From: Pontederia crassipes | Lineage: Eukaryota; Streptophyta; Magnoliopsida; Commelinales; Pontederiaceae | Assembly (NCBI GenBank): GCA_030549335.1 | Contig: CM060198.1 | Location: forward strand, 41,394,353-41,458,352 | DNA: 64,000 nt | Reading direction: 5' to 3' | In this document: positions 24,486-64,000 of the stretch, one piece after another | How the letters are laid out: each line of letters starts with the position of its first letter | Numbering within the stretch: the stretch's first letter is position 1 | The notes under the pieces: model-generated | The model's database searches: none | What the model was told of the DNA's origin: nothing | Seen by the model: only the letters and a program-made list of their open reading frames with translations | Program-made: the position numbers and the translations under genes

Positions 24486-24724
24486 AGGCCGGTCAACCTG
24501 CCGATCGACGCAAAGAAGGCCGGTCGAGAAGATACTGGTCGACCGAATAGAAGTTGCCGGTCGATCGATAACTACTGAGCTTGCTCCGAACGACATCGAG
24601 CCGATACCGAATGATTTATCAGTCGACAGACCGGTCGACCGGTCAAGCGTAGAAATTGAAAAAAATGCGCAACGGTCACATAGACCGGTCGACCAGTCCA
24701 GAAGTGCGATCGACCGGCCTCCGA
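24486..24724. repeat. GGTCGACC palindrome array in LTR A1
   Basis: About ten units of the type CCGGTCGACCGG, including the perfect 16-base palindrome GACCGGTCGACCGGTC near 24645. The array ends 80 bases before the TATA box. Confidence 0.85.
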
Positions 24725-24803
24725 GTCAAATGAATAGTAACAGTCAAATTTGAAGGAAGAATTTGTGGAATAATTTTTGGATGAATTTTCTACACATTGA
24801 AGG

Positions 24804-24813
24804 CTATAAAAGG
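24804..24813 (+). promoter_or_regulatory. TATA box of LTR A1
   Basis: CTATAAAAGG followed by AGTGCCA, the same as in A0 and A2 (28169-28178). Confidence 0.7.
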
Positions 24814-25413
24814 AGTGCCAGAGCTAGAGGCAAAGGCACCCATTCACTCATTGAAAAAAAGCTTCAAGTTATCAAAGAGAGATCATTTTCTTGGAGTTTT
24901 CATTTTATAGCTTTCTCATTCTTTCTCTCTTCTCTTCTTGTGAGCATAGAATTGTAAAAGAGAGAAACACTTTTGTTCAAAAAAATTAGAGAGAGCTCCT
25001 GTGTAAAAGAGGTTCTAAATCTTACCTCTTGAGCGAGAGAAATAGATTAGCTTCCTAGAAGGAGAGGTTGCCTTGCCTCTCGAAGCGGAGAAAAAGTCGG
25101 TGGTGTAAAGGGCTTTCTTCCTTGCCACATTTGGAACAAAGGAAGTGCTAGTGGAATCTCTGACGGTCTCGAGGTCGAGAAGTCGGAGCGGGGACATACG
25201 CCAAGGTGTGGCCGAACCTCGTCAACAATCGCCGTGTTTTTGTGTTTGATTTTCTCTCTCTCTCTCCGTTCATATTGTGTTTATAATCTGAATTGCAAAG
25301 GTTTTAAGAATCAGTTTTGTGCTTCCGCGATGAATTTTTTGAAATCAATATTTTCGATTGAACACCAATTTACCCCCCCCCCCCCCTCTTGGTGCCCTTT
25401 GGGATCCTACAAT

Positions 25414-25425
25414 TGGTATCAGAGC
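25414..25425 (+). other. Primer binding site of element A
   Basis: TGGTATCAGAGC two bases after the LTR end: a perfect initiator-Met-tRNA complement. Confidence 0.9.
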
Positions 25426-25525
25426 GGGTTGCTCTTGTTTTGATCTTTTGAATCATCTCGATTTTTAGATCTAATAATTTTTAAGATTCAATCGTTTGTT
25501 TTAAGATTTAACAATCTTAAGAGCT

Positions 25526-26985
25526 ATGGCATCAAGCGCATATGTTTTTGCCGAAGGACAATCAATTAGTCGTCCTTCCCTTTTAAATGCATCAAATTTT
25601 CAATCTTGGAAGATTCGGATTCAAGCCTACATATGTTCTATTGATATAAACATTGTGGGATATTGTTGAAAAAGACTATTATTTACATGAAAAATTACCT
25701 TCCGAACATGACAAAAGACAAAAAAAAATTTCAAAATTGGATTGAAAAGCAAAGAATATTTTCTATTGTGCTTTGAATTCAATGGAGTTTAATTGGATTT
25801 CAAGTTGTGAAACTGCAACCGAGATTTGGGAAAAACTCATTACTACTTATGAAGGAACCGACAAAGTTAAGAAAATCTAGATTGAATATTTTAAACCATC
25901 AATATGATTCTTTCAAAATGCATGATAATGAATCCATAAATTATATGGTTACTCGGTTTAATGATATTTTGAATGGCTTAGCCTCCTTCGGTGAGCCAAG
26001 ATCTAAACCCCAAAAAGTGAAAAAGATTCTCAGGTCTCTCTCCTCCAAATAGCATACGAAGAGGACCGTAATCGAAGAAAAGGATTTGAACAAATTGGAT
26101 TTTGATGATCTTATTGGCTCACTTTTAACCTATGAGATCTCAATCCAAGAAGATCAAGAAGAAAAAGCCCCCAAGAAGAAAACATTGGCATTGAAGGCAA
26201 ATACAATAGAAGAAGATTCAAGTGATGAGGAAGTGGATGAAAAGAAACTCTCACTCTACTCAAGAAAATTAGATAAGTATCTCAAGTTGGTTAAAAAGAA
26301 AGACAAGAATGAGAAGCCAACAAGAAAATCATACAAACATCACAAAGAAGAAAAATCTCAGAAAGATACAAAGAAAAAATATGAAGAGTCTAGTGAAACA
26401 AATAGTTCATCAAGCTCTTCTAGTGATGAAGCATACATATGCTTGATGGCAGACGACGATGATGTAATCTCTAACCCCTCAAACTCAAATTATGACTCAT
26501 CAAACTCTTCCGAAGAAATTCTTTCTTTAGATGTGAACAAAGAACTCTCCTCTCTTATAAAAAGATATTTTTCAAGTAAAGAGGAAAATAAAACATTAAT
26601 ACATGAAATTGAAAAATTAAAAGAGGAAAATAATGCATATTTTTTGGAAAATGAAAAACTAAAAAGTGATATTGATACTTTGGAAATCACGCATGCATAT
26701 GAAGTTGTAAAACTAGCATGTTCTTTGGAAAAGGTAAAGAAAGAAAACGTCTCTTTGAAAGATATACAAAATAAAATTATTTCTTATGCAAAGAAAAATA
26801 AACTTAGGAATCATCCCTATGATAGAAAATCACATTTTAAATGCTTTACATGTGGATTTTATGGACATTATGCATATCAATGCAAAATGAGAAAATCAAC
26901 ACAACATGATATGATTTGGGTTCCAAAAGGAACATTGTCTAACAAATTAGGACCCAAAGAAATTTGGGTACCAAAGATTACATAA
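25526..26985 (+). pseudogene. gag of Ty1/copia element A, fossil
   Basis: Capsid/nucleocapsid gene of a plant copia element. The UBN2-type gag domain starts near 25600 (SWKIRIQAYICSIDI) and runs to about 26080 (RLNILNHQYDSFKMHDNESI). A lysine/glutamate-rich coiled-coil region with a serine tract (26400-26440) follows, then a CCHC zinc knuckle at 26842-26883 (CFTCGFYGHYAYQC), then the repeated WVPK words typical of the gag end in this group. The 26086-26985 part is open for 299 codons. After it come about 600 non-coding bases and a PPT; no protease, integrase, reverse transcriptase or RNase H is seen between the LTRs. The upstream part is broken a few times. The related element B has the same gag followed by pol parts. 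Confidence 0.88.
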
Positions 26986-27590
26986 TTACTTTTCAGGTGT
27001 GCCTCACATGCAAAGCAAAGGACAAGTGGTGAAGGCACAAAGGTTATGGTAAAAGTATCACTTACTTTTTTATTTCACCCAAAAATTTCAAAACTACTAT
27101 CTCTTTAAAAGAAAAGAAGAACACATAAAAGATTAGTCATGGTGATAGGGGGAGCATGATCAAACATTATTTCACATATCATAGATATCACATTGTTTTG
27201 TCAAAGTTTTATGCCATATTTTAATATATTTTGTTTTGGCTTTCATAAATTGGTTCTCATTATAAAATATCCATAAATTTAGGGGGAGTTATGTTTCAAA
27301 ACTTGCAATAATCTACGTATCTATTATATGACAAAAAAGGGGAAGAATATTTTTTTAAAAAATTTGATTAAGGGGGAGTTACATATTGTTTCTTATATAG
27401 TTCAATTACAAATGACTTCTTAATGAAACAAAAAGGGGAATAATATAGGAGAAATATGACCTGAATATATTGTATATGAAAAGTTAAGTGTTAGAGGGAG
27501 TAAAATTATTTTAACAAGATTTTACAACTTTTTAGTCAACTTATATCTTTTTCATATTTCTCGATTTGTCTTCATCAAAAAGGGGGAGAT
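26986..27590 (+). other. Non-coding 3' internal region and PPT of element A
   Basis: Contains several GGGGGAG words (27160, 27283, 27373, 27581); the last, AAAAAGGGGGAGA at 27577-27589, touches LTR A2 and is the polypurine tract. The same stretch is present in A3 at 58339-58790. Confidence 0.8.
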
Positions 27591-28763
27591 TGTTGGGTCA
27601 AAGTTTTAATGACATATAAAATTATATTTTGATGAAACAAACCTCGAAAGATTGAAGTTGAAATGTTGAAAAAGTTTAAAGAAAAATGGATAAATTTATG
27701 CACTATACTTTGATTAAATAATTGTCAATGATCTCATTAGTTTTGGATGAATGTGGAATATCAGACTTGTAGAAAATTCTGTTAGCTTTCCATAGACTCC
27801 AAGATCATCTAATTTGGATAACCATGCAGAAAGTTATGATCAAAAGAGTGCAGGTCGGTCAACTTGCTGGTCGACGCAAAGAAGGCCGGTCGAGAAGATA
27901 CCGGTCGACCGAATAGAAGTTGCCGGTCGACCGATAACTACTGTGCCTGCTCCGGACGATGTTGAGCCGATATCGATCGATGTATCGGTCGACAGACCGA
28001 TCGACTGATCAAGCGCAGAAATTGAAGAAAACACGCAATGGTCACATAGACCGGTCGACCGGTCCAGAAGTGCGGTCGACCAGCCTTCGAGTCAAATGAA
28101 CAGTAACGGTCAAATTTGAAGGAGGAATTTGTGGAACAATTTATGGACGAATTTTCCACACATTGAAGGCTATAAAAGGAGTGCCAAAGCCAGAGGCAAA
28201 GACACCCATTCAGTCATTGAAGAAAAGCTTCAAATTATCAAAGAGAGATCATTTTCTTGGAGTTTTCATTTTATAGCTTTCTCATTCTTTCTCTCTTCTC
28301 TTCTTGTGAGCATAGAATTGTAAAAGAGAGAAACACTTTTGTTCAGAAAAATTAGAGAGAGCTCCTGTGTAAAAGAGGTTATAAATCTTACCTCTTGAGT
28401 GAGAGAAATAGATTAGCTTTCTAGGAGGAGAGGTTGCCTTGCCTCTCGAAGCGGAGAAAAAGGCGGTGGTGTAAAGGGCTTTCTACCTTGCACCATTTGG
28501 AACAAAGGAAGTGCTATTGGAATCTCTGGCGGACTCAAGGTCGAGAAATCGGAGCGGAGACGTAGGCCAAGATGTGGCCGAACCTCGTCAACAACCCCGT
28601 GTCTTTGTGTTTAATTTTCTCTCTCTCTCCCCATTCATATTGTGTTTATAATCTGAATTGCAAAGGTTTTAAGAATCGGTTTTGTGCTTCCGCGACGAAT
28701 TTTGTGAAATCGATATTTTCGGTTAAACACTACCCCCCTCTTGGTGCCCTTTGGGATCCTACA
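27591..28763 (+). mobile_element. 3' LTR of copia element A (A2)
   Basis: TGTTGGGTCAAAG...GGGATCCTACA, 1173 bases, with the GGTCGACC array at 27852-28090 and the TATA box at 28169-28178. The 3' flank is CCCGT. No matching 5-base repeat borders the cluster, which agrees with rearrangement after insertion. Confidence 0.92.
27852..28090. repeat. GGTCGACC palindrome array in LTR A2
   Basis: Same arrangement as in A1, with GACCGGTCGACCGGTCC near 28050 and GGTCGACCG units at 27903 and 27925. Confidence 0.85.
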
Positions 28764-29371
28764 CCCGTAAGATATTTTTCTTCAAACTTCTTCAATTCGT
28801 AACGGACTATTATACAAATTCACGACCTATGATAACTTTTCCTTATCTGATCGCTAAAGGAGCAGTGAAACTACATGATCCGTGAAGACTAGTTGTATCA
28901 GCCATGAGAAATATGACCCGCAAGATTTCTCAATTGAAAAGTAGAGATTGCCTGGTCCATGAAATGGTGTAGATGGTGCATGAAACTTCGTAGTCACGGC
29001 CGTGACCCATATTTAATGGCCCATGAAATCAATTTTTTCGTGTGAAGTAGTTCTATGACAGCCACGAGTGTCAGGTTTTGGGGCATGAGACAACCCTTTC
29101 ACGGCCATGACAACAAAATAGCGACCCATGGAAAGTCAAGTTTTAATCTTTGAAAGCTGATTTGACTCTATGTCACATGATTCTTCTTTCATTCCCTTCC
29201 TTTGCTGATTTTCATTGATAATTCTTGCAAAATACACCAACTAGAGGTAGATTGCTACTTCAAAGAATTTAAAGAAATAAATAGAAAAACTAGATACATG
29301 CTATGATCAAATTACACAAAATAAGCCTAAATGTCAGCCTAATTATATGTTGTAAAATGCATGCATCAGAC
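28764..29371 (-). mobile_element. Fragment of a Tat-like LTR (minus orientation)
   Basis: Its right end (ATCAAATTACACAAAATAAG... TGTTGTAAAATGCATGCATCA at 29371) matches, diverged, the outer ends of the Tat-like LTRs at 36347 and 44475. The middle has many CATGA/GTGAC words (GTCACGGCCGTGACCC at 28992 is a 16-base near-palindrome). No coding sequence. Confidence 0.5.
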
Positions 29372-29422
29372 CTAAGGAATCCACCCTACCACTCCCCAAA
29401 GAAGGTGGAACAATCCAAGGGT

Positions 29423-31330
29423 CAATGCCATCATTGTGGAAAGTATCATCCTGGCAAATGCCGTCTCAAGGTTGGGACTTGTTTGCAATGTGACAAAGCT
29501 AGAGATTACATAAGAGCCTGAAAAGCATGGACATTACCATGACAAAAGGAAAGGAAAGCAAATTGCAATCCCACCAAGAGCCCCGACAAGGGTGTTTGCT
29601 ATGCATGTTGATAAAGCTCTCCAATCACATGATGTGATCCAAGGTAATATCCTCATCACTGGACATCATGCAAATGTTCTTTTTTTACACGGATGCAATG
29701 CATTCTTTCATCTCACATGCTTTTATTGGAATGTTCAAAGTTAGACCTCAAGTCACAAATTGTCAACTAACGGTAGTGACTCCAACAGAATGGTAGCCAC
29801 AAGAAGAGCCACTAGAAGGTATATTCCTAATGTACTTATAAAGTAGATGAGCAAGATTTTCCTATTGATCTTATTTCATTTCCCATGGTAGATGTAATGA
29901 TAGGAAATAGATTGGCTATCATATAATGATGCTCGTAAGTGTATTGTAAAGAAAAGAATTTTTTTCTAGGTGATCATCATGGAGCACCCAGGGTGATTCA
30001 AGGAATTTCTTCTAAGCAAGCCAAAGTGTTAATCTCAATGACAAAGGCAAGCACGATGATCAAGGAAGGAGCTAGAGGATTCTTCATGAATGTCCTCAAG
30101 ATGGATTCACAACCCAAGGCAATTGAGTCCTTGGATGTGGTAAAAGAATATCCTGATGTCTTTCGGTAGACTTGAGGGATTGCCAGCAAGGCAGGAGATT
30201 GAGTTTAATATTGAACTAGCACTAGACAACACACCAATTTCAAAATCTCATCAAATGACCCCGACTGAAATGCATGAATTAAATACCCAATTGCAAGAGC
30301 TATTGGACAAGGATTTCATTAGGCCGTGTTTCACCTTGAGGCACACCGGTGCATTTTGTCAAAAAGAAACATGACTCCTTAAGGTTGTGTATCGACTACT
30401 GGATACCTGGATTAGTAATCTTTTTTATACATTGTCCTCTACGTTAGTTTTCTCAAAAATTGACCTAAGGAGTAGCTACCATCAATTGAAAATAGCGGAG
30501 CAAGACATTTCAAAGATGGCATTTTGATCAAGGTATGGTGTCTATAATTTTTTTATTATGCCTTTTGGACTAACGAATGTGCCCATTGCATTCATAGATT
30601 TCATGAAGAGGATCTTTCGGCCATACTTGGATAAATTTGTTATCGTCTGTGTAGATGGCATTCTCATTTAGCATCAAGAATATCTTCATACTGTATTGGA
30701 GACAGTAAGTAGAAACGAGCTTTATGCCAAATTTTTTAAGTGTGAATTTTGGCTTGAAGAAGTGATGTTCCTTGGACATATTGTGTGAAAGCATGTTGTA
30801 TCTGTGGATCCGACAAAGGTAGAAGTGGTGACAATTTGGTGTAGGTCAAAGATTGTGACCAAAATTAGAAGTTTCTTGGGACTAGCTGAATATTATAGAA
30901 GATTTATTTAAGATTTCTTAAAGATAGCCACACACAAAGTGGACATGAAAAGGCGAGAAGCTCATATGGTCACAAGAATGTGGAGCAAGTTTTCAAGAGA
31001 TCAAGAGCAGACTCACACAACACCGATCTTAGTCATTCCTTCAGGAAGTGGAGGCTATGCCATTTATAGGGATGCTTGTGGCACGGGCTTAGGTTCTACT
31101 TATGCAACATGGCAAAGTGGTAGTATATGCTTTTCAGCAATTGAAGATGCATGAAGTCAACTACCCAACTTAAGAGTATACAAATCTTAAAAATATTCTC
31201 ATTAAAAATATGGCGTCATTACTTGTATGATGAAGACTTTGAAGTGTATACAAATCTTAAGAGTTTCAAGTATGTATTCTCACTTCTCGCAAGAAGAGTT
31301 GAACATGCGACAAAAAAGATGGCTTGAGTT
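29423..31330 (+). pseudogene. Element C gag end, protease and reverse transcriptase/RNase H part, fossil
   Basis: The zinc knuckle CHHCGKYHPGKC at 29436 is followed by a second cysteine pair. The protease-to-RT spacer (29940-30170) carries the typical VVKEYPDVF-like words (KEYPDVFR, 30146), and RT begins with EMHELNTQLQELLDKDFIRP (30270). The palm follows around 30540-30680 and the FLGHIV and RSFLGLAEYYRRFI words of the thumb near 30770 and 30870. RNase H starts at GGYAIYRDACGTGLGS (31051). The coding frame is broken in many places. The sequence continues at 38955 on the far side of the copia B insertion. Confidence 0.8.
31326..31330. repeat. Target-site duplication of copia B (left)
   Basis: GAGTT, identical to 38955-38959. 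It lies inside the WLEF words of element C's RNase H region, and the same coding words resume after 38955. Confidence 0.85.
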
Positions 31331-31473
31331 TGTCGAGTCCCATGTTTTGACAAAAACAAATTAAATGGGACATAAAAGTTACTAATCTATGCTCAAGTGA
31401 TGATAATGCAAGTGTTATCAATCACATAAGAAATCATCAAATTAAACATTTAAAAATCAAGATTCAGCATACG

Positions 31474-31812
31474 ACCGATCGGCCCATCGGTCGACCAGCC
31501 ATGAAGACCGATCGATTAATATCAAGTGGAAAAAATGTCGAGACTATACCGGTCGACGGTCCGGTCGTTGCACCAGTCGACCGGTCAGTGCAGCAGCATT
31601 CACAAATGACGAGACTATACCGGTCGACGTCGAGACTATACCGGCTGATGTACCGGTCGACTCAAGATGTACTGATCGACATCGAGACGTTACTGGTTGA
31701 TGTATCGATCGAAGGAATGGTCGATCGGATAATGGATAAAATCGCAAATATGCCACAACGATCATATTGACCGATCGACCGGCCCATTAATGCGGTCGAC
31801 CGGTCATAGTGC
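31474..31812. repeat. GGTCGACC palindrome array in LTR B1
   Basis: About a dozen CCGGTCGAC/GTCGACCGG-type units, ending about 80 bases before the TATA box as in family A. It also holds a direct repeat of GAGACTATACCGGTCGACG (31540, 31612). Confidence 0.8.
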
Positions 31813-45274: not shown

Positions 45275-46309
45275 TGTAACGCCCCCAAAATCGCACCTCC
45301 TGCCACGTAGGCCCCTCAGGTTGACCTCGGGAGCACTACACTTCCTATTACACTATTGACCATGACCATTCAATAAAATGGCATACGTGGCATCAATATA
45401 ATAAGAAAGATAATCCAAGACTTTAATGTGAAAGTTTAAACGTTGGAATGTCAAGAGACATCAATAGGTAATGCAGTCTATAACAAAGTGGGGAAGAATC
45501 ACAATTTAACAAGTTCAACAAAGATGTTCGATATGCAGAAGATCATGATGTCCATGAATAACAAGTGAATCATAACTTAGAATGCAATTGATAATTCTTT
45601 GACGATATAATTAGTCATGTGCAACTTCCTCCAAGCTCTGGGCACTTCCATACCTCATTGAGCAGCATTCTCACCTGCAAAATCTCAATGCAAAGGAATC
45701 GAATACCCATGAGCAAAAAGTCCAGTACAATAGCAATATAGACGATGAAATAGGGATCAATGATAATCATAGCAACCATATATCAGTGGTGAACAATACT
45801 ATACTTTGACTTCTATACATTGACTATAATAGACCATATACAATGCTTCTGTTATATCCATAACTGTACTCTATTCTTTATCATGACTATACTTTGTCTT
45901 TACTGTACCCTGCAATATCTGTACAATAACACAGTCCATACTTTGCTATACAATGTTCTATACTTTACTCTAGAGTACTTTACTTTACTTTATTTGACTT
46001 CTGCACATTGACTATATGGGCCATGTACCATGCTTTAACAATGTCAATATCTATACTCTGTTCTTTACTATGACAATACATTGTCTTTACTTTACATTAT
46101 CTTTACCATACCGTATTCCATACTTTACTGTACCATATTCTATACTGTACAATACTTTACTTTACATTTCTTTATTGTGAGTTGCACTACGTCTTTTACA
46201 TTACTACGATGTCCTTAAAGTTAGTTGTCCTATGCGAGCTCGACTTTATTAAATTGGGATGTTAGAGGTGCCTCTATGAATTTGTAAAGCCAGTAAGCCC
46301 ATAAAGGGA

Positions 46310-47330: not shown

Positions 47331-47743
47331 CGAACCGATCGGTCTCCGGCTGGCCTAACTGGAACGGTCGACCCTTCCCTGGACCGGCGACCGTTCTTGC
47401 AATATCAATCGACCGGTCCTCTTGGATCGGTCGACCTTGTTCTCTGTCTATAGGACCGATCGACCGCTCACAAACTATCGGTCGACCGACTTCTCTATGT
47501 GTCAATGGATCGGTTGACCGTTCTTAGAGACCGATCGACCGATCTTACGATCATGGAGACGCGCACTGCGCGTCGGATCGGTCGACCGTTCGGAGGGTCG
47601 GTCGACCGTTCGTAAAACTAAATCTGTGTGTAACATGTGGATCGGTCGACCGGCCAAGTGGGATCGGTCGACCGATCAAAAGATGAAACATTTTGAGTCC
47701 TTTGCTGGATCGGTCGACCGTTCACAGAACTGATCGACCGGAC
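47331..47743. repeat. GGTCGACC palindrome array in the 3' LTR of E
   Basis: About fifteen units, of which about eight keep an intact GGTCGACC. It includes the perfect 16-base palindrome GATCGGTCGACCGATC near 47667. The array lies some 350-770 bases downstream of the LTR's own minus-strand TATA box, unlike in copia A and B where it is upstream. Confidence 0.88.
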
Positions 47744-52660: not shown

Positions 52661-53659
52661 AACTGTAACGCCCCCAAAATTGCCCCTCCTACCACGTAGG
52701 CAGTCAGATTGACCCCGGGAGTGCTACACTGTCTACTACACTATTGATCATGACCATTCAACAAAATGGCATACGTGGCACCAAGACTTTAGTGCGGAAG
52801 TTTAAACGTTGGAATGTCAAGAGACATCAATAGTTAATGCAGTCTATAACAAAGTGGGGAAGAATCACAATTTAACAAGTTCAATAGAGACGTTCGATAT
52901 GCGGAAGAACATGATGTCCGTAAATAACAAGTGAATCATAACTTAGAATGCAATTGATAATTCTTTGACGATATAATTAGTCATGTGCAACTTCCTCCAA
53001 GCTCTGGGCACTTACACACCTCATTGAGCAGCATTCTCACCTGCAAAATCCCAATGCAGAGGAATCGAATACCCATGAGCATAAAGCCCAGTACAATAGC
53101 AATATAGACGGTGAAACAAGGATCAATGATAATCATAGCAACCATATATCAGTGGTGAACAATACTATACTTTGACTTCTATACATTGACTATAATAAAC
53201 CATATACAATGCTTCTGTTATATTCTTTACCATGACTATACTTTATCTTTACTGTACCCCGCATTATCTGTACAATAACACAGTCCATACTTTGCTATAC
53301 AATGTTCTATACTTTACTCTAGAGTACTTTACTTTACTTTACTTTACTTTGACTTCTGTGCATTGACTATATGGGCCATGTACCATGCTTTAACAATGTT
53401 AATACCTGTACTCTGTCCTTTACTATGACTATACATTGTCTTTACTTTACATTATCTTTACCATACCATATTCCATGCTTTACTGTACCATATTCTATAC
53501 TGTACAATACTTTACTTTACATTACCTTACTGTGAGTTGCACTACATCTTTTACATTACTACGATGTCCTTAAAGTTAGTTATCCTATGCGAGCTCGACT
53601 TTATTAAGTTGGGATGTTAGAGCTGCCTCTATGAATCTGTAAAGCCAGTAAGCCCATAG

Positions 53660-59824: not shown

Positions 59825-60130
59825 CGATACTCGTCAAAACCTTCGATGGGCGCTGCCCGACGAAGGCACCGGCGGAGTGCGATAGATACGTCCATCAAAA
59901 ATTTTATAAAAATATAAATAAATAGGCCGCCTGCTGCCAAATTGGCTCTCGCAACCTATCCGGAGCAGGCGGCCGAAATCGAGATAGAGAGAGACGGGAA
60001 GGGAGATGGGAGGAGGCCATGGATGTGGTCGGCCGCCCTATTGCCCCATCAGGCCGCCCGTGAGCCCGATCAGCCGCCAGCGACCCGATCCGCCGCCTGC
60101 GGCCAGTTGCGGTGGCCTGTGAGCCGTATC

Positions 60131-62769
60131 TGTCACGACCCCGGTTTAAAACCTCGGTCTAAGCTGCAAGTCGCGACATAAAGCGATCAATAAAATTCTT
60201 AAAGCGGAAGCATCATATTATCGTGTAGAAACATGTGAGATAAGGTTATCAAACAATTGTTCACAACCCACTTATATTTAAACTCATAGCAAGTACACAC
60301 TCTAGTTCAAACTCATCCATTTTAAAAGGTTTCTGAAACATTTAACTTTTACACACCACATAAAACATTAAGAGGAGTCACACATCCCCACAAAAAGACA
60401 TCAAGAAACTAAGTCTTCAAAAGTGCTTCAAATCCGATAGGGGATTTCCAAGCACGGCCACATGACTGGTCTACTGATCTGAAAAGGGGTTAAAATAAAA
60501 TTATGAGCAAACAACAGCTCAGTAAATTGAAAACTCATAACGTATGTGTTACCACCTATTCAGATTAGATAAATTAATTTAGTATTTTAAAAACTTATAG
60601 GAAACAAGTTGACATCTTATTACTTATGAACAATTATCATATAATGAAGGATACTACATCAAGTAATCTCAATGAATAACATCTTTAGCATATCATATAA
60701 TGTCTCACATATTTGTTTTACTTCATATAACATTTCACATATCATATCATGTATCATGCCATATCTATCATGTATCATATCATATCATGTATGCACGTAT
60801 GCATAATGCACATGTCATATTACCAACTGGTCAGAGGAACATATTACCCCGTAAGGTTTCATATCATCCCAAATCATGGGGTACATTTCTTGCAGAAAAC
60901 ATATCATCTCTGACCAGATGCGTCATATTATCTCTACCGGGGAACATATATTATCCCGTAGGATACCATATCATCCCATGAAAATGGGGTACCTTTCCTG
61001 CATAAGACATATCATCCCGGTAGAGGAAATGCAATACATGACAAATAAGATGCATAATGCATGCATTAACCATATCATATCACTTAGAACACATATCATA
61101 TAATTGCATTAAAAATAATCCACTCACTTTTTGATCCTATAGAACATATAGTCAGATCAAATGACATTCCAAAGGACATAACAAGAGCTATAACAATGAT
61201 GGGTTACTTCTAGTGCACCTTGGTACACTAGGAATTTGTGTGGTGCTAGAAACATCATGCATAATAATATTTAAACATGTGATATTAATACAATTATAAT
61301 TTTTGCATCACAACAGTCTTCACGAAGCCTAATCCTCTGTAAATTTCCCATTTAAGGTATATTGTATAAGGGCTCTAAAATTTCATCAAGACAACCATAT
61401 TCTTCACCTACCCAGTTTGCTGACAGATTGAGTGGTGTCATTTGTAAAATCCATAACTTCTGGAATACTTATGATAATAGAGTAATTATAATTTTCCATG
61501 AAACTAGACTACCCAAGATCTAACCCATATAAATGTCATAATTTTATCACTCATATGTGATTCTTAGAAAATCCAGAGATTTACCTCTGTTCTCTTCTAC
61601 TTTTCTGTTCTGACAGACTGAGTGAGGTTCACTTTAAAACTCATAACTCTCGTTGTACATGGTCTATAAAAGTGATTCCACTTGGATTACAAAGATAACT
61701 TTAACATATTTAATCCATATAAATTTCATATATTAAGTGTAAATATTTACATTACTATAGTATTTACAATTCGGACTACTCATCCAAGAAATCAGAAAGG
61801 GCGACTCAGAGTAATTGACTCATAACTTTTCATATAAAATTCCAATTAACCTGATTCCAGATCCTATAGAAAGAAGCTCAATTAGGTTCATCCTAAGAAA
61901 TTTCATAATTTTTTTTAAGCACTCTAAGATGTTGAGAACATGTTTACAACTTTCGGATAGGTTTGGTGTCCAACAAAGAGGAAACTTCATGTAGGTGAAC
62001 TAGGGTTTGATCCACACCACAAGAACATGGACATATAGAAGCATAAAGAGATCTTGGAGGCTCAGGAGAACATAGTTCCATCTGAATTTCATAGGGATAG
62101 TTCATAGAAAAGGAGTAGACAACTTACCTAAATGAAACCCTAACAAGTAAACCTTGATTTCTCCTCTTCCTTTCTTCTTATTTTCCTTAGCCTTAGTTGC
62201 TGCCTTGCTGAAGTGGAATGATTGTTCCCATGGGGTAAAGTGATAAGATTTTAGGCTATACATATCTTGGATACCGACCTATAGTCGGTTGGAAGTAAGT
62301 TTCCAACTTTGCCCTTAGAGTTCACCTTATTCACAAGAATATCATTACTTAAGACATTACATGTAAATAAGAAACTACCCCACATTTGGATTCAAAGAAA
62401 ATATTTAGGAAAATAAATTTCCAAGGAATCGAAATCTAATTTTTTGTCCGAAGAACAAAATCGATCGTTTTTCTGATTTTTCGATTTTGCGCTATCATTT
62501 AACCTCAATAATACTTTACTTAAAAAATATTAAAAAACATATTTAACATACTTTCATATATAGGAACAATTACCGGGACTTTAATTTATAAATTCTAATA
62601 TTTTTTAAAAAGTCATTTTTCCTTGTCCTTGGTCATTTGTCATCAATTTCAGGTGTTGGGTTCTATGGAGTTAATGAACATATGCTCACACAATTATCAT
62701 AATTCATATCAATCAATAATATATGGTTAAATTATATAAACTTAGGTGGATCAAGTCATGGATATTACA
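60131..62769 (-). mobile_element. 3' LTR of gypsy K
   Basis: The + strand begins TGTCACGACCCCGGTT and ends TGGATATTACA. On the minus strand this is a TGTAATATCC...GGGGTCGTGACA LTR, a common plant gypsy form. It holds CATATCAT-rich sequence and the hairpin pair at 60827-61025. A minus-oriented PPT follows. The LTR is about 2.6 kb. It begins where the CACTA sequence stops (flank GTATC). Confidence 0.8.
60827..61025. repeat. Two tandem hairpin units with covarying 10-base stems
   Basis: Unit 1: CTGGTCAGAG (60827-60836) pairs perfectly with CTCTGACCAG (60908-60917) across a 71-base loop. Unit 2: CTCTACCGGG (60932-60941) pairs perfectly with CCCGGTAGAG (61016-61025) across a 74-base loop. The loops are closely similar to each other (GAACATAT...CCATATCATCCCA...ATGGGGTAC...ACATATCAT) while the stems differ. 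Confidence 0.9.
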
Positions 62770-62774
62770 TTCTA

Positions 62775-62788
62775 CCCCCCTTAAAAGA
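62775..62788 (-). other. Polypurine tract of element K
   Basis: Minus strand TCTTTTAAGGGGGG, next to the LTR end at 62769. Confidence 0.75.
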
Positions 62789-63074
62789 ATTTCATCCTCG
62801 AAATTAACATATGAACCAAAATATGGATATTACACCTAAGATTGGTATATGTATATCTTTTATGACAATCTAAATTGGTTTGGTATGCTAATGATCTGTC
62901 CAAAGCAACATAACATTTTACCTTGGGAAATAAAACTATTAGTGCAAAAATTAGATGTGTATTACTTACTCTATCAGTTGGTTATTCCTATATCATATTC
63001 GAAAATTGGATTCTACGAATGCTCTTCTCCTTTTATCCTTTAGTAATATGCTAAATTTTTAAAACATAAAAAGT
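62789..63074. other. Unassigned internal sequence of element K
   Basis: AT-rich, between the PPT and the end of gag. It includes a second GGATATTACA (62824-62833). No protease, RT or integrase words are visible on either strand. Confidence 0.35.
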
Positions 63075-64000
63075 TTAAATACCAATTAAGCAAGCTATGA
63101 TATATAGGGTCATATATCTAACTATATTACCTGCTATCATGTATGGGGCTTCAACATCTTGTTGCTTTAAAGCATACATTTGTCCTTGTGCCACTGGTTG
63201 TTTCCCCTTTTCTGTCGCCCTATATGATGATGGTGGTGGTGGTGGGTGTTGTTGTTGCTGCATCAAAGGACAACTTCTCATATAATGCCCCATTCTTTCA
63301 CACCTAAAACATGCTCCAGTATCCTTATGGCACGGAGACCTTCCATGTCTCCTTCCGCATTTTTTACAAGCTTGATTATTTGGTTGTGGTTCTTGTGTTG
63401 GGATTGATATCTCATTTCCTTTTTCTTTGAAGTCAAAATGTATAGGTTTCAATTGTTGAGAATAAGAACCTCTCTCCATATTCTTCATTTCTCGTTCTGC
63501 ATGAAATTTTTTTATATCACTTTCCACTAATTGAGCTCTTTCATAGACATCCTCATAGATTCTTAATTTTAAATGTATAAGTTTACTCCTAATAGCAGGC
63601 CTAAGTCCTCTCTCAAACTTTTTAGCTTTTTCAACTTCATTTGCTACTATATGGTTTGCAAATCTTGATAACTCCGCAAATTTTGCTTCATATTGATCCA
63701 TAGTCATATCTCCTTGTTCAAGTTTGAGAAAGTCAATTACTTTCTTGTCATGAGCACAATCAGAGAAATATTTTCCAAGGAAGACTTCCACAAACTTCTT
63801 CCACGATAAACTAGGATCAGTAGTTAAGATTCTAGGCTTCGTCGCCTTCCACCAGTGTTCAGCATTGCCCTCAAGCATAAATTCTGCAAAAATAATCTTG
63901 TCCATCTCATCACAACTCAAGGCAGCAAATATCTTTTCCAACTTATTTATCCAAGCTTCAGCTTCAATTGGATCACCATCGCCTTTGAATGTGGGAGGCT
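63075..64000 (-). pseudogene. gag of gypsy element K (runs off the window)
   Basis: Open on the minus strand for about 300 codons, from the window edge to 63075. Near the edge it reads FKGDGDPIEAEAWINKLEKI, the usual gag start region; then the retrotransposon gag domain (AEFMLEGNAEHWWKATKP; FVEVFLGKYFSDCAHDKKVI; EQGDMTMDQYEAKFAELSRF; KKFERGLRPAIRSKL). A basic region follows, then a double zinc-binding stretch, CKKCGRRHGRSPC and CFRCERMGHYMRSC (about 63295-63360), and a proline/glutamine tract. This is the capsid and nucleocapsid of a chromovirus-type Ty3/gypsy element. The start lies beyond 64000. Pol, expected next, is not seen before the PPT. The frame inside the window is unbroken, so this is the best-preserved gag here; the element as a whole is not complete. 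Confidence 0.9.

Follow-up and report, generated by a model that had tools for sequence, protein, structure and literature searches.

Does an array of hairpins in a plant LTR preserve an RNA structure, or does it record only how inverted repeats arise and decay? The question was raised by two adjacent hairpin units in LTR K of Pontederia crassipes, which a preliminary description took as the mark of selection for structure. We studied the stretch of DNA that carries them (64,000 nucleotides, hereafter the window; C16:41394353–41458352 in an assembly of 1.13 Gb) together with other genomic copies of the array. We give about an even chance to the reading that the array is a structural module of the sense-strand RNA of a Ty3/gypsy-type LTR transcript, and set out below the evidence on both sides.

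A gag-bearing element and the array in its LTR

The element lies on the minus strand, so that RNA sense is minus; this corrects the strand on which the array was first read. Its parts in the window are as follows.

60131–62769, minus strand: LTR K, ∼2.64 kb, terminal 3′ LTR of the window's element; its sense ends are TGTAATATCC...GGTCGTGACA
62770–62786, minus strand: polypurine tract adjoining LTR K, AAGGGGGGTAGAA in sense, read from sequence
63075–63998, minus strand: gag open frame of 307 aa, running past the window edge, with PF03732 and PF19259

The gag frame matched Retrotrans_gag (PF03732, E 7e-17) and Ty3_capsid (PF19259, E 4.7e-10). Besides this gypsy-type gag, the element has the TG...CA LTR ends (in sense), the polypurine tract and the PBS-like word that characterize the Ty3/gypsy type; the PBS-like word (TGGTATCTGAAC) is decayed and was found after each of the two LTRs that succeed LTR K in the tandem (L002 and L003). 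The array recurs at exact 4251-bp steps, with ∼1.6 kb between LTRs and the order LTR–gag–LTR–gag–LTR. The element is thus short: gag is present and, judged by size, there is apparently no room for pol. The three tandem LTRs stand at C16 41455132, 41459383 and 41463634 (window 60131–64000 plus L002 and L003), and a further locus, L101, suggests that the LTR–gag tandem may continue.

LTR K is 98.2% identical to the neighboring LTR over 2451 bp and is therefore a fairly young copy. The array lies ∼1.7–1.9 kb into the 2.64-kb LTR, counted in sense. Diverged repeats with a step of ∼177–192 bases occupy 61275–61911 of the same LTR. The window array (60820–61040) is 95.0% identical to those of L002 and L003 over 221 bases, whereas the LTRs themselves are 97%–98% identical. 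This larger divergence of the array from the neighbor (5.0%, against 1.8% for the LTR) counts against the RNA reading; the excess may reflect fast local decay or conversion.

We split the array into short segments at CATATC words. In plus-strand letters the segments run as arm a, CGTA hairpin b, CCCA/TGGG hairpin c, arm d, CGTA hairpin e (a segment of older copies), arm f, hairpin g, hairpin h and arm i′; arms a and d pair as stem 1, and arms f and i′ as stem 2. The corresponding features of the window copy are listed here.

60799–60810, unstranded: ATGCATAATGCA, exact repeat flanking the array, in direct repeat with 61050–61061
60827–60836, minus strand: stem 1, 3′ arm in sense RNA, perfect over 10 bp
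60846–60857, minus strand: inner hairpin b, modal sense ACCC-UACG-GGGU, with a single weaker pair in this copy
60868–60880, minus strand: inner hairpin c (CCCA ... TGGG)
60908–60917, minus strand: stem 1, partner 5′ arm in sense RNA, perfect over 10 bp
60917–60925, minus strand: insertion point, where 43 of 81 aligned copies have an extra ∼20 bases with a third CGTA-loop hairpin, e
60932–60941, minus strand: stem 2, 3′ arm in sense RNA, perfect over 10 bp
60952–60965, minus strand: inner hairpin g, sense UAUCC-UACG-GGAUA
60975–60988, minus strand: inner hairpin h, CCCAT-GAAA-ATGGG on the plus strand, with a UUUC loop in sense
61016–61025, minus strand: stem 2, partner 5′ arm in sense RNA, perfect over 10 bp; the T at 61021 is a rare change
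61050–61061, unstranded: ATGCATAATGCA, second flanking copy, in direct repeat with 60799–60810

The two adjacent perfect 10-bp stems of the preliminary description were confirmed at their coordinates, as was the similarity of the loops that they enclose (60837–60907, 71 bases, and 60942–61015, 74 bases; 80.3% identical over 76 columns). Stem 2 owes its perfection in the window copy partly to the rare change in the pair 60936/61021, which is A.C on the plus strand (a U.G wobble in sense RNA) in 19 of the 22 copies of the window copy's group, itself included; this, too, is a point against the RNA reading. A single pair of 10-bp arms spaced 40–120 bases apart is not rare, with 71 overlapping seeds in the 64 kb. 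Dinucleotide shuffles of 60780–61060 (n = 2000) gave at least one seed in 80 cases and at least two in 24, the latter being an upper bound, as one 11-bp stem counts for two seeds.

The inner pairings first described as ACCCC/GGGGT and TATCC/GGATA are more aptly represented by hairpins with a CGTA loop, ACCC-CGTA-GGGT (which has decayed in the window copy) and TATCC-CGTA-GGATA; a third inner pairing, CCCAT-GAAA-ATGGG, has to be added to them. Hairpin e (GTCC-CGTA-GGAC on the plus strand), which the window copy lacks, is exact in 17 of its 43 carriers.

Differences between units and among genomic copies

We collected 100 array-bearing loci (L001–L100), of which 92 were kept as non-redundant; the eight dropped as identical include three real separate copies (L003, L013 and L014). 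Eleven of the 92 belong to a family with longer arrays and were set apart, leaving 81 two-unit copies for alignment. These fell into groups Y1, Y2 and O (22, 15 and 43 copies), with one copy fitting neither Y1 nor Y2 at 60909. All copies were found through the array itself, and comparisons of conservation are biased accordingly. Seven array copies (L006, L007 and L010–L014; G000 C9 21.21–21.32 Mb) lie on one strand at spacings of 16.7–20.9 kb, as if a larger unit had been duplicated in tandem.

Had the stems been kept by selection among these copies, covarying pairs were expected in both. A self-built test in the style of R-scape (a G-test with APC correction, whose null came from reshuffling substitutions over a flank-based tree) found none in 39 stem pairs across the 81 copies, and the stem mean was −0.18 compared with −0.004 overall. 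Nor was divergence any slower in stem columns than elsewhere in the array in the 81 copies: net divergence between younger (38) and older (43) copies was 0.028 in stem columns and 0.021 in non-stem columns, and the whole-array value of 0.024 lay inside the range of flanking 100-base bins (0.011–0.057). Within the copies of this family, then, the outcome that the preliminary description had named as a refutation was observed. The 78 stem columns hold 556 departures from the group majority, and 406 of these are C>T or G>A, the pattern expected of dead and presumably methylated copies. No selection acts on dead copies as they decay, so only changes from the active period of the element are informative.

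Changes of that kind may be sought in the differences between subfamilies, where a plus-strand A.C mismatch reads as a G.U pair in the sense strand. Across 34 pairs and three copy groups, the modal pair was Watson–Crick or sense G.U in 101 of 102 cases; the sole exception was 60827/60917, broken in group Y2 (eight of 15). The group-level differences at 60835/60909, 60933/61024, 60936/61021 and 60940/61017 all exchange Watson–Crick and G.U pairs, and 60937/61020 is mixed. Counted on the tree, changes of the sense-G.U and sense-A.C types stood at 161.6:127.8 on terminal branches, 26.0:22.0 on branches leading to two or three copies and 26.4:10.6 on branches leading to at least four. The strand bias is weak across all branches and clear only on the last class, for which p is ∼0.02 if events are independent, and they are not fully so. 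Stem changes at the subfamily level thus mostly keep G.U pairing in sense RNA.

A second comparison was offered by the tandem units themselves. From the last CTG onward, arm f in its T form at 60937 (21 of 43 older copies; the other 22 have C) equals arm a minus one G and one A, and arm i′ in its A form at 61020 (20 of 41) equals arm d minus one C and one T. The stems thus differ by two single-base deletions (losses or gains) per arm, and the bases missing from f and i′ are each other's partners. If two bases are removed from arm d, two of the 45 possible choices leave pairing complete and 14 preserve at least seven of eight pairs. Stems 1 and 2 are homologous, with two base-pair indels between them; they are not the unrelated stems first supposed. 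The paired indels are near neighbors and may go back to a single event. The alternative form, with C opposite G at 60937/61020, would give one more compensated pair, and the T/C and A/G states are not linked in older copies (in sense, C-G in 12, U-A in 10, G.U in 10 and A.C in nine of 41). Two further compensated pair differences separate the stems of the CGTA-loop hairpins b, e and g (ACCC/GGGT, GTCC/GGAC and ATCC/GGAT).

A third comparison concerns the loops. Loose patterns caught 217 distinct loops in 91 of the 92 copies, of which 166 are CGTA (UACG in sense), 29 CATA (UAUG) and four TGTA (UACA). The two single-step CpG variants, CATA and TGTA, therefore differ by a ratio of ∼7:1, whereas the same two decay routes at flanking CpGs gave 237:189 (Fisher p = 1.8e-4 against the loops, a value overstated by the large asymmetry from site to site among the flanking CpGs, e.g., 6:22 and 27:11). 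An effect of sequence context on deamination is a possible explanation of the skew. Only on the sense strand is C(UACG)G a tetraloop sequence of the UNCG class; hairpins b and g are closed by C-G as their modal pair. A paper on enterovirus tetraloops, in the part available to us, places UNCG-class folds under YNMG plus some YNUG, jointly YNHG (PMC5633025); UACG and UAUG fit this consensus and UACA does not, and UAUG itself goes unnamed in that part. Judged by sequence, the UACG loops would belong to a stable class in sense RNA only.

Relatives of the array and computed folds

The set-apart LTR family (L037 and L091–L100) mostly has three units, with four in L096; eight of its 11 copies entered a separate alignment of longer arrays, from which L037, L092 and L096 were left out. 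The arrays of L037 and L091 are 71%–77% identical to those of two-unit LTRs. On one side of L037, up to ∼240 bases beyond the array can be aligned to one or more two-unit LTRs, but not the ∼500 bases that follow, as far as an LTR-end-like motif; its other side is interrupted by another sequence. The right flank of L091 (L103, 860 bases) has one patch of 58%–62% identity with three of four two-unit loci, and its left flank (L102) gave no alignment with the four two-unit loci compared. The two-unit subfamilies, by comparison, align with one another over ∼2 kb at 79%–86%. The distance from the stem 1 arm to the LTR-end-like motif is 761 bases in L037 and 696 in the window. By these alignments the LTRs of both families are related, with the array looking like their best-kept part; since the array was itself the means of finding the loci, this is no more than suggestive. 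In the longer arrays, the middle unit appears by eye to have one extra, unpaired base in many cases, and this counts against the RNA reading.

Two other tandem arrays in the window, at 45793–46178 and 53310–53533, are TACTTTACTGTACA-like, lie in two other repeats that resemble each other and contain no inverted repeats of at least 10 bases within 150 bases, which rules them out as relatives of the LTR K array. Many GGTCGACC-like palindromic words form clustered inverted repeats at 24633–31771 and 47425–47711.

In computed folds of a 226-base region, the window copy was more stable than shuffled sequences on both strands (z = −2.95 for minus, the sense strand, and −4.62 for plus, the antisense strand). 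Mean z-scores in 16 of the 81 aligned copies were −2.22 for sense and −1.88 for antisense, and two flanking LTR stretches gave −0.33 to +0.75 in the same comparison. Ensembles computed for the sense strand of all 81 copies had mean pair probabilities of 0.57 for stem 1 and 0.46 for stem 2, with the inner hairpins only partly formed (0.30–0.37). Several of these results count against a sense RNA: The antisense strand outfolds the sense strand relative to shuffles in the window copy; the UACG hairpins b and g reach only 0.30 and 0.35; and hairpin h, whose GNRA-type GAAA loop exists on the antisense strand only (64 of 146 loops of c and h pooled), has a pair probability of 0.65 in antisense and 0.32 in sense.

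Candidate roles and rival explanations

The stems, the genomic copies, the homology of the units and the sharing of the array between families are observations; the cause is where readings divide. Selection for structure, as first proposed, draws on the differences between units, the sense G.U lean, the loop class, the shared array and the fold scores relative to the flanks, and is opposed by the lack of covariation and by stems that diverge no more slowly than the rest. On balance, the evidence supports, but does not prove, that pairing in sense RNA was kept during the active period of the element. If so, each unit would consist of an outer stem of 8–11 bp enclosing two hairpins, one capped by C(UACG)G and the other CCCAU...AUGGG, together a multi-way junction. 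The linkers between units are AUGAUAUG, to which older forms add another UACG hairpin, and duplication has brought the units to two in the window's family and to three or four in the divergent family.

A purely mutational history would need no RNA function: Tandem duplication and fold-back template switching would have remade the inverted repeats, which then decayed neutrally. As reported in the part available to us of a study of template switching, the process can produce a perfect stem, or compensatory changes at several bases, in a single step (PMC8794818), and one event of this type could explain the neighboring paired indels of stems 1 and 2. The absence of covarying pairs among copies and the pace of the stem columns, no slower than the loops, agree with such a history, which leaves unpredicted the sense G.U lean on deep branches, the repeated C(UACG)G loop and an array that survives in LTRs with poorly alignable flanks; we regard it as doubtful, if plausible. 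The array might instead act as DNA, its repeated CATATCATC words and palindromic cores serving as protein-binding or cruciform sites (in a promoter, in silencing or as an insertion target). Both strands do fold, and the words are regular and by eye look little changed, but the stability of the linkers may merely reflect their few methylatable C. Moreover, relative to shuffles the same strand folds no more strongly as single-stranded DNA (z = −2.59) than as RNA (z = −2.95), and the UNCG loop and G.U preference are specific to RNA and to one strand. A DNA-level cruciform is less favored than RNA structure, and we judge a DNA-level element distinctly unlikely. The stems, 10 bp long and lying beside other hairpins, could in principle also be diced, making the fold-back RNA a source of siRNAs for silencing, a by-product of no function to the element. 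They are short and interrupted, however, and selection on pairing from the side of the element would not be expected, which makes this account very improbable.

Three more specific candidates found no support. A leader intron spanning the array, from AGGTAAGT (sense, 62129–62122) to TTTTCAG (near 60478), is unsupported; across copies the two signals are no more intact than usual (59th and 36th percentile of 2031 8-mers), with the branch-like word at the 13th. A search of window positions 60000–64000 against Rfam gave no family at E ≤ 1, hence no hammerhead as in a retrozyme. An ENE would call for a U-rich internal loop between flanking helices, none of which we saw by eye in the sense array, and it too had no Rfam match in the same interval.

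Comparison with known systems bears on what a sense-RNA module might do; the sources cited here were available to us in part. In the long R regions of retroviruses, residual conservation is tied to stem-loops (PMC3601003); the present array differs in being repeated, in lying in a plant-type Ty3/gypsy LTR and in being placed by its position in the LTR, not by a mapped R. Ty1 and Ty3, the latter of the same broad superfamily, need cis-acting RNA for Gag-dependent packaging; according to a review of their encapsidation, the sequences important for it lack a precise definition and the structure of Ty3 RNA has yet to be characterized, and the portion at hand of that review contains no array like that of LTR K (PMC4974528). 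Retrozymes likewise place a structured RNA, in their case a hammerhead, in the LTR of a short non-autonomous element (PMC4918200, PMC9695139). The ENE of the Arabidopsis Copia element Evade is also a plant retrotransposon RNA structure, one that promotes mobility, but its U-rich tracts form a triplex with poly(A) and it sits between the ORF and the LTR (PMC12501189). The non-autonomous TR-GAG elements resemble the present one in having LTRs and a gag frame, and here too the size would apparently leave no space for pol; the available text mentions no LTR hairpin array for them. Among the entries listed in searches of an open-access library, we saw no description of such an array.

For the sense-RNA module, recognition by Gag is our first choice of role, because the element seems to have kept hardly anything but gag and cis-acting sequence and because a series of hairpins would lend itself to multivalent binding. 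We tentatively suggest that the element's Gag would bind the array as a packaging or dimerization signal; after it we would rank a role in nuclear export or stability and one in translation control. In a more elaborate version, which we think unlikely, the array would be expandable, its two to four units of junction plus UNCG hairpin acting as multivalent sites for Gag (its own or that of a partner element) and changing in number as the element evolves. If true, a packaging signal would thereby be defined for an LTR retrotransposon of plants.

The array also serves as a worked example of how decay of dead copies can hide possible structure from a plain covariation test, and of the evidence that stays informative despite that decay: wobble changes specific to one strand, the class of the loops and the ways in which tandem units differ. 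LTR retrotransposons make up a large share of many plant genomes, and to our knowledge their packaging and RNA-recognition signals are largely undefined in plants. A repeated, strand-specific RNA array, better kept than the remaining LTR, would be a concrete and testable candidate for such a signal.
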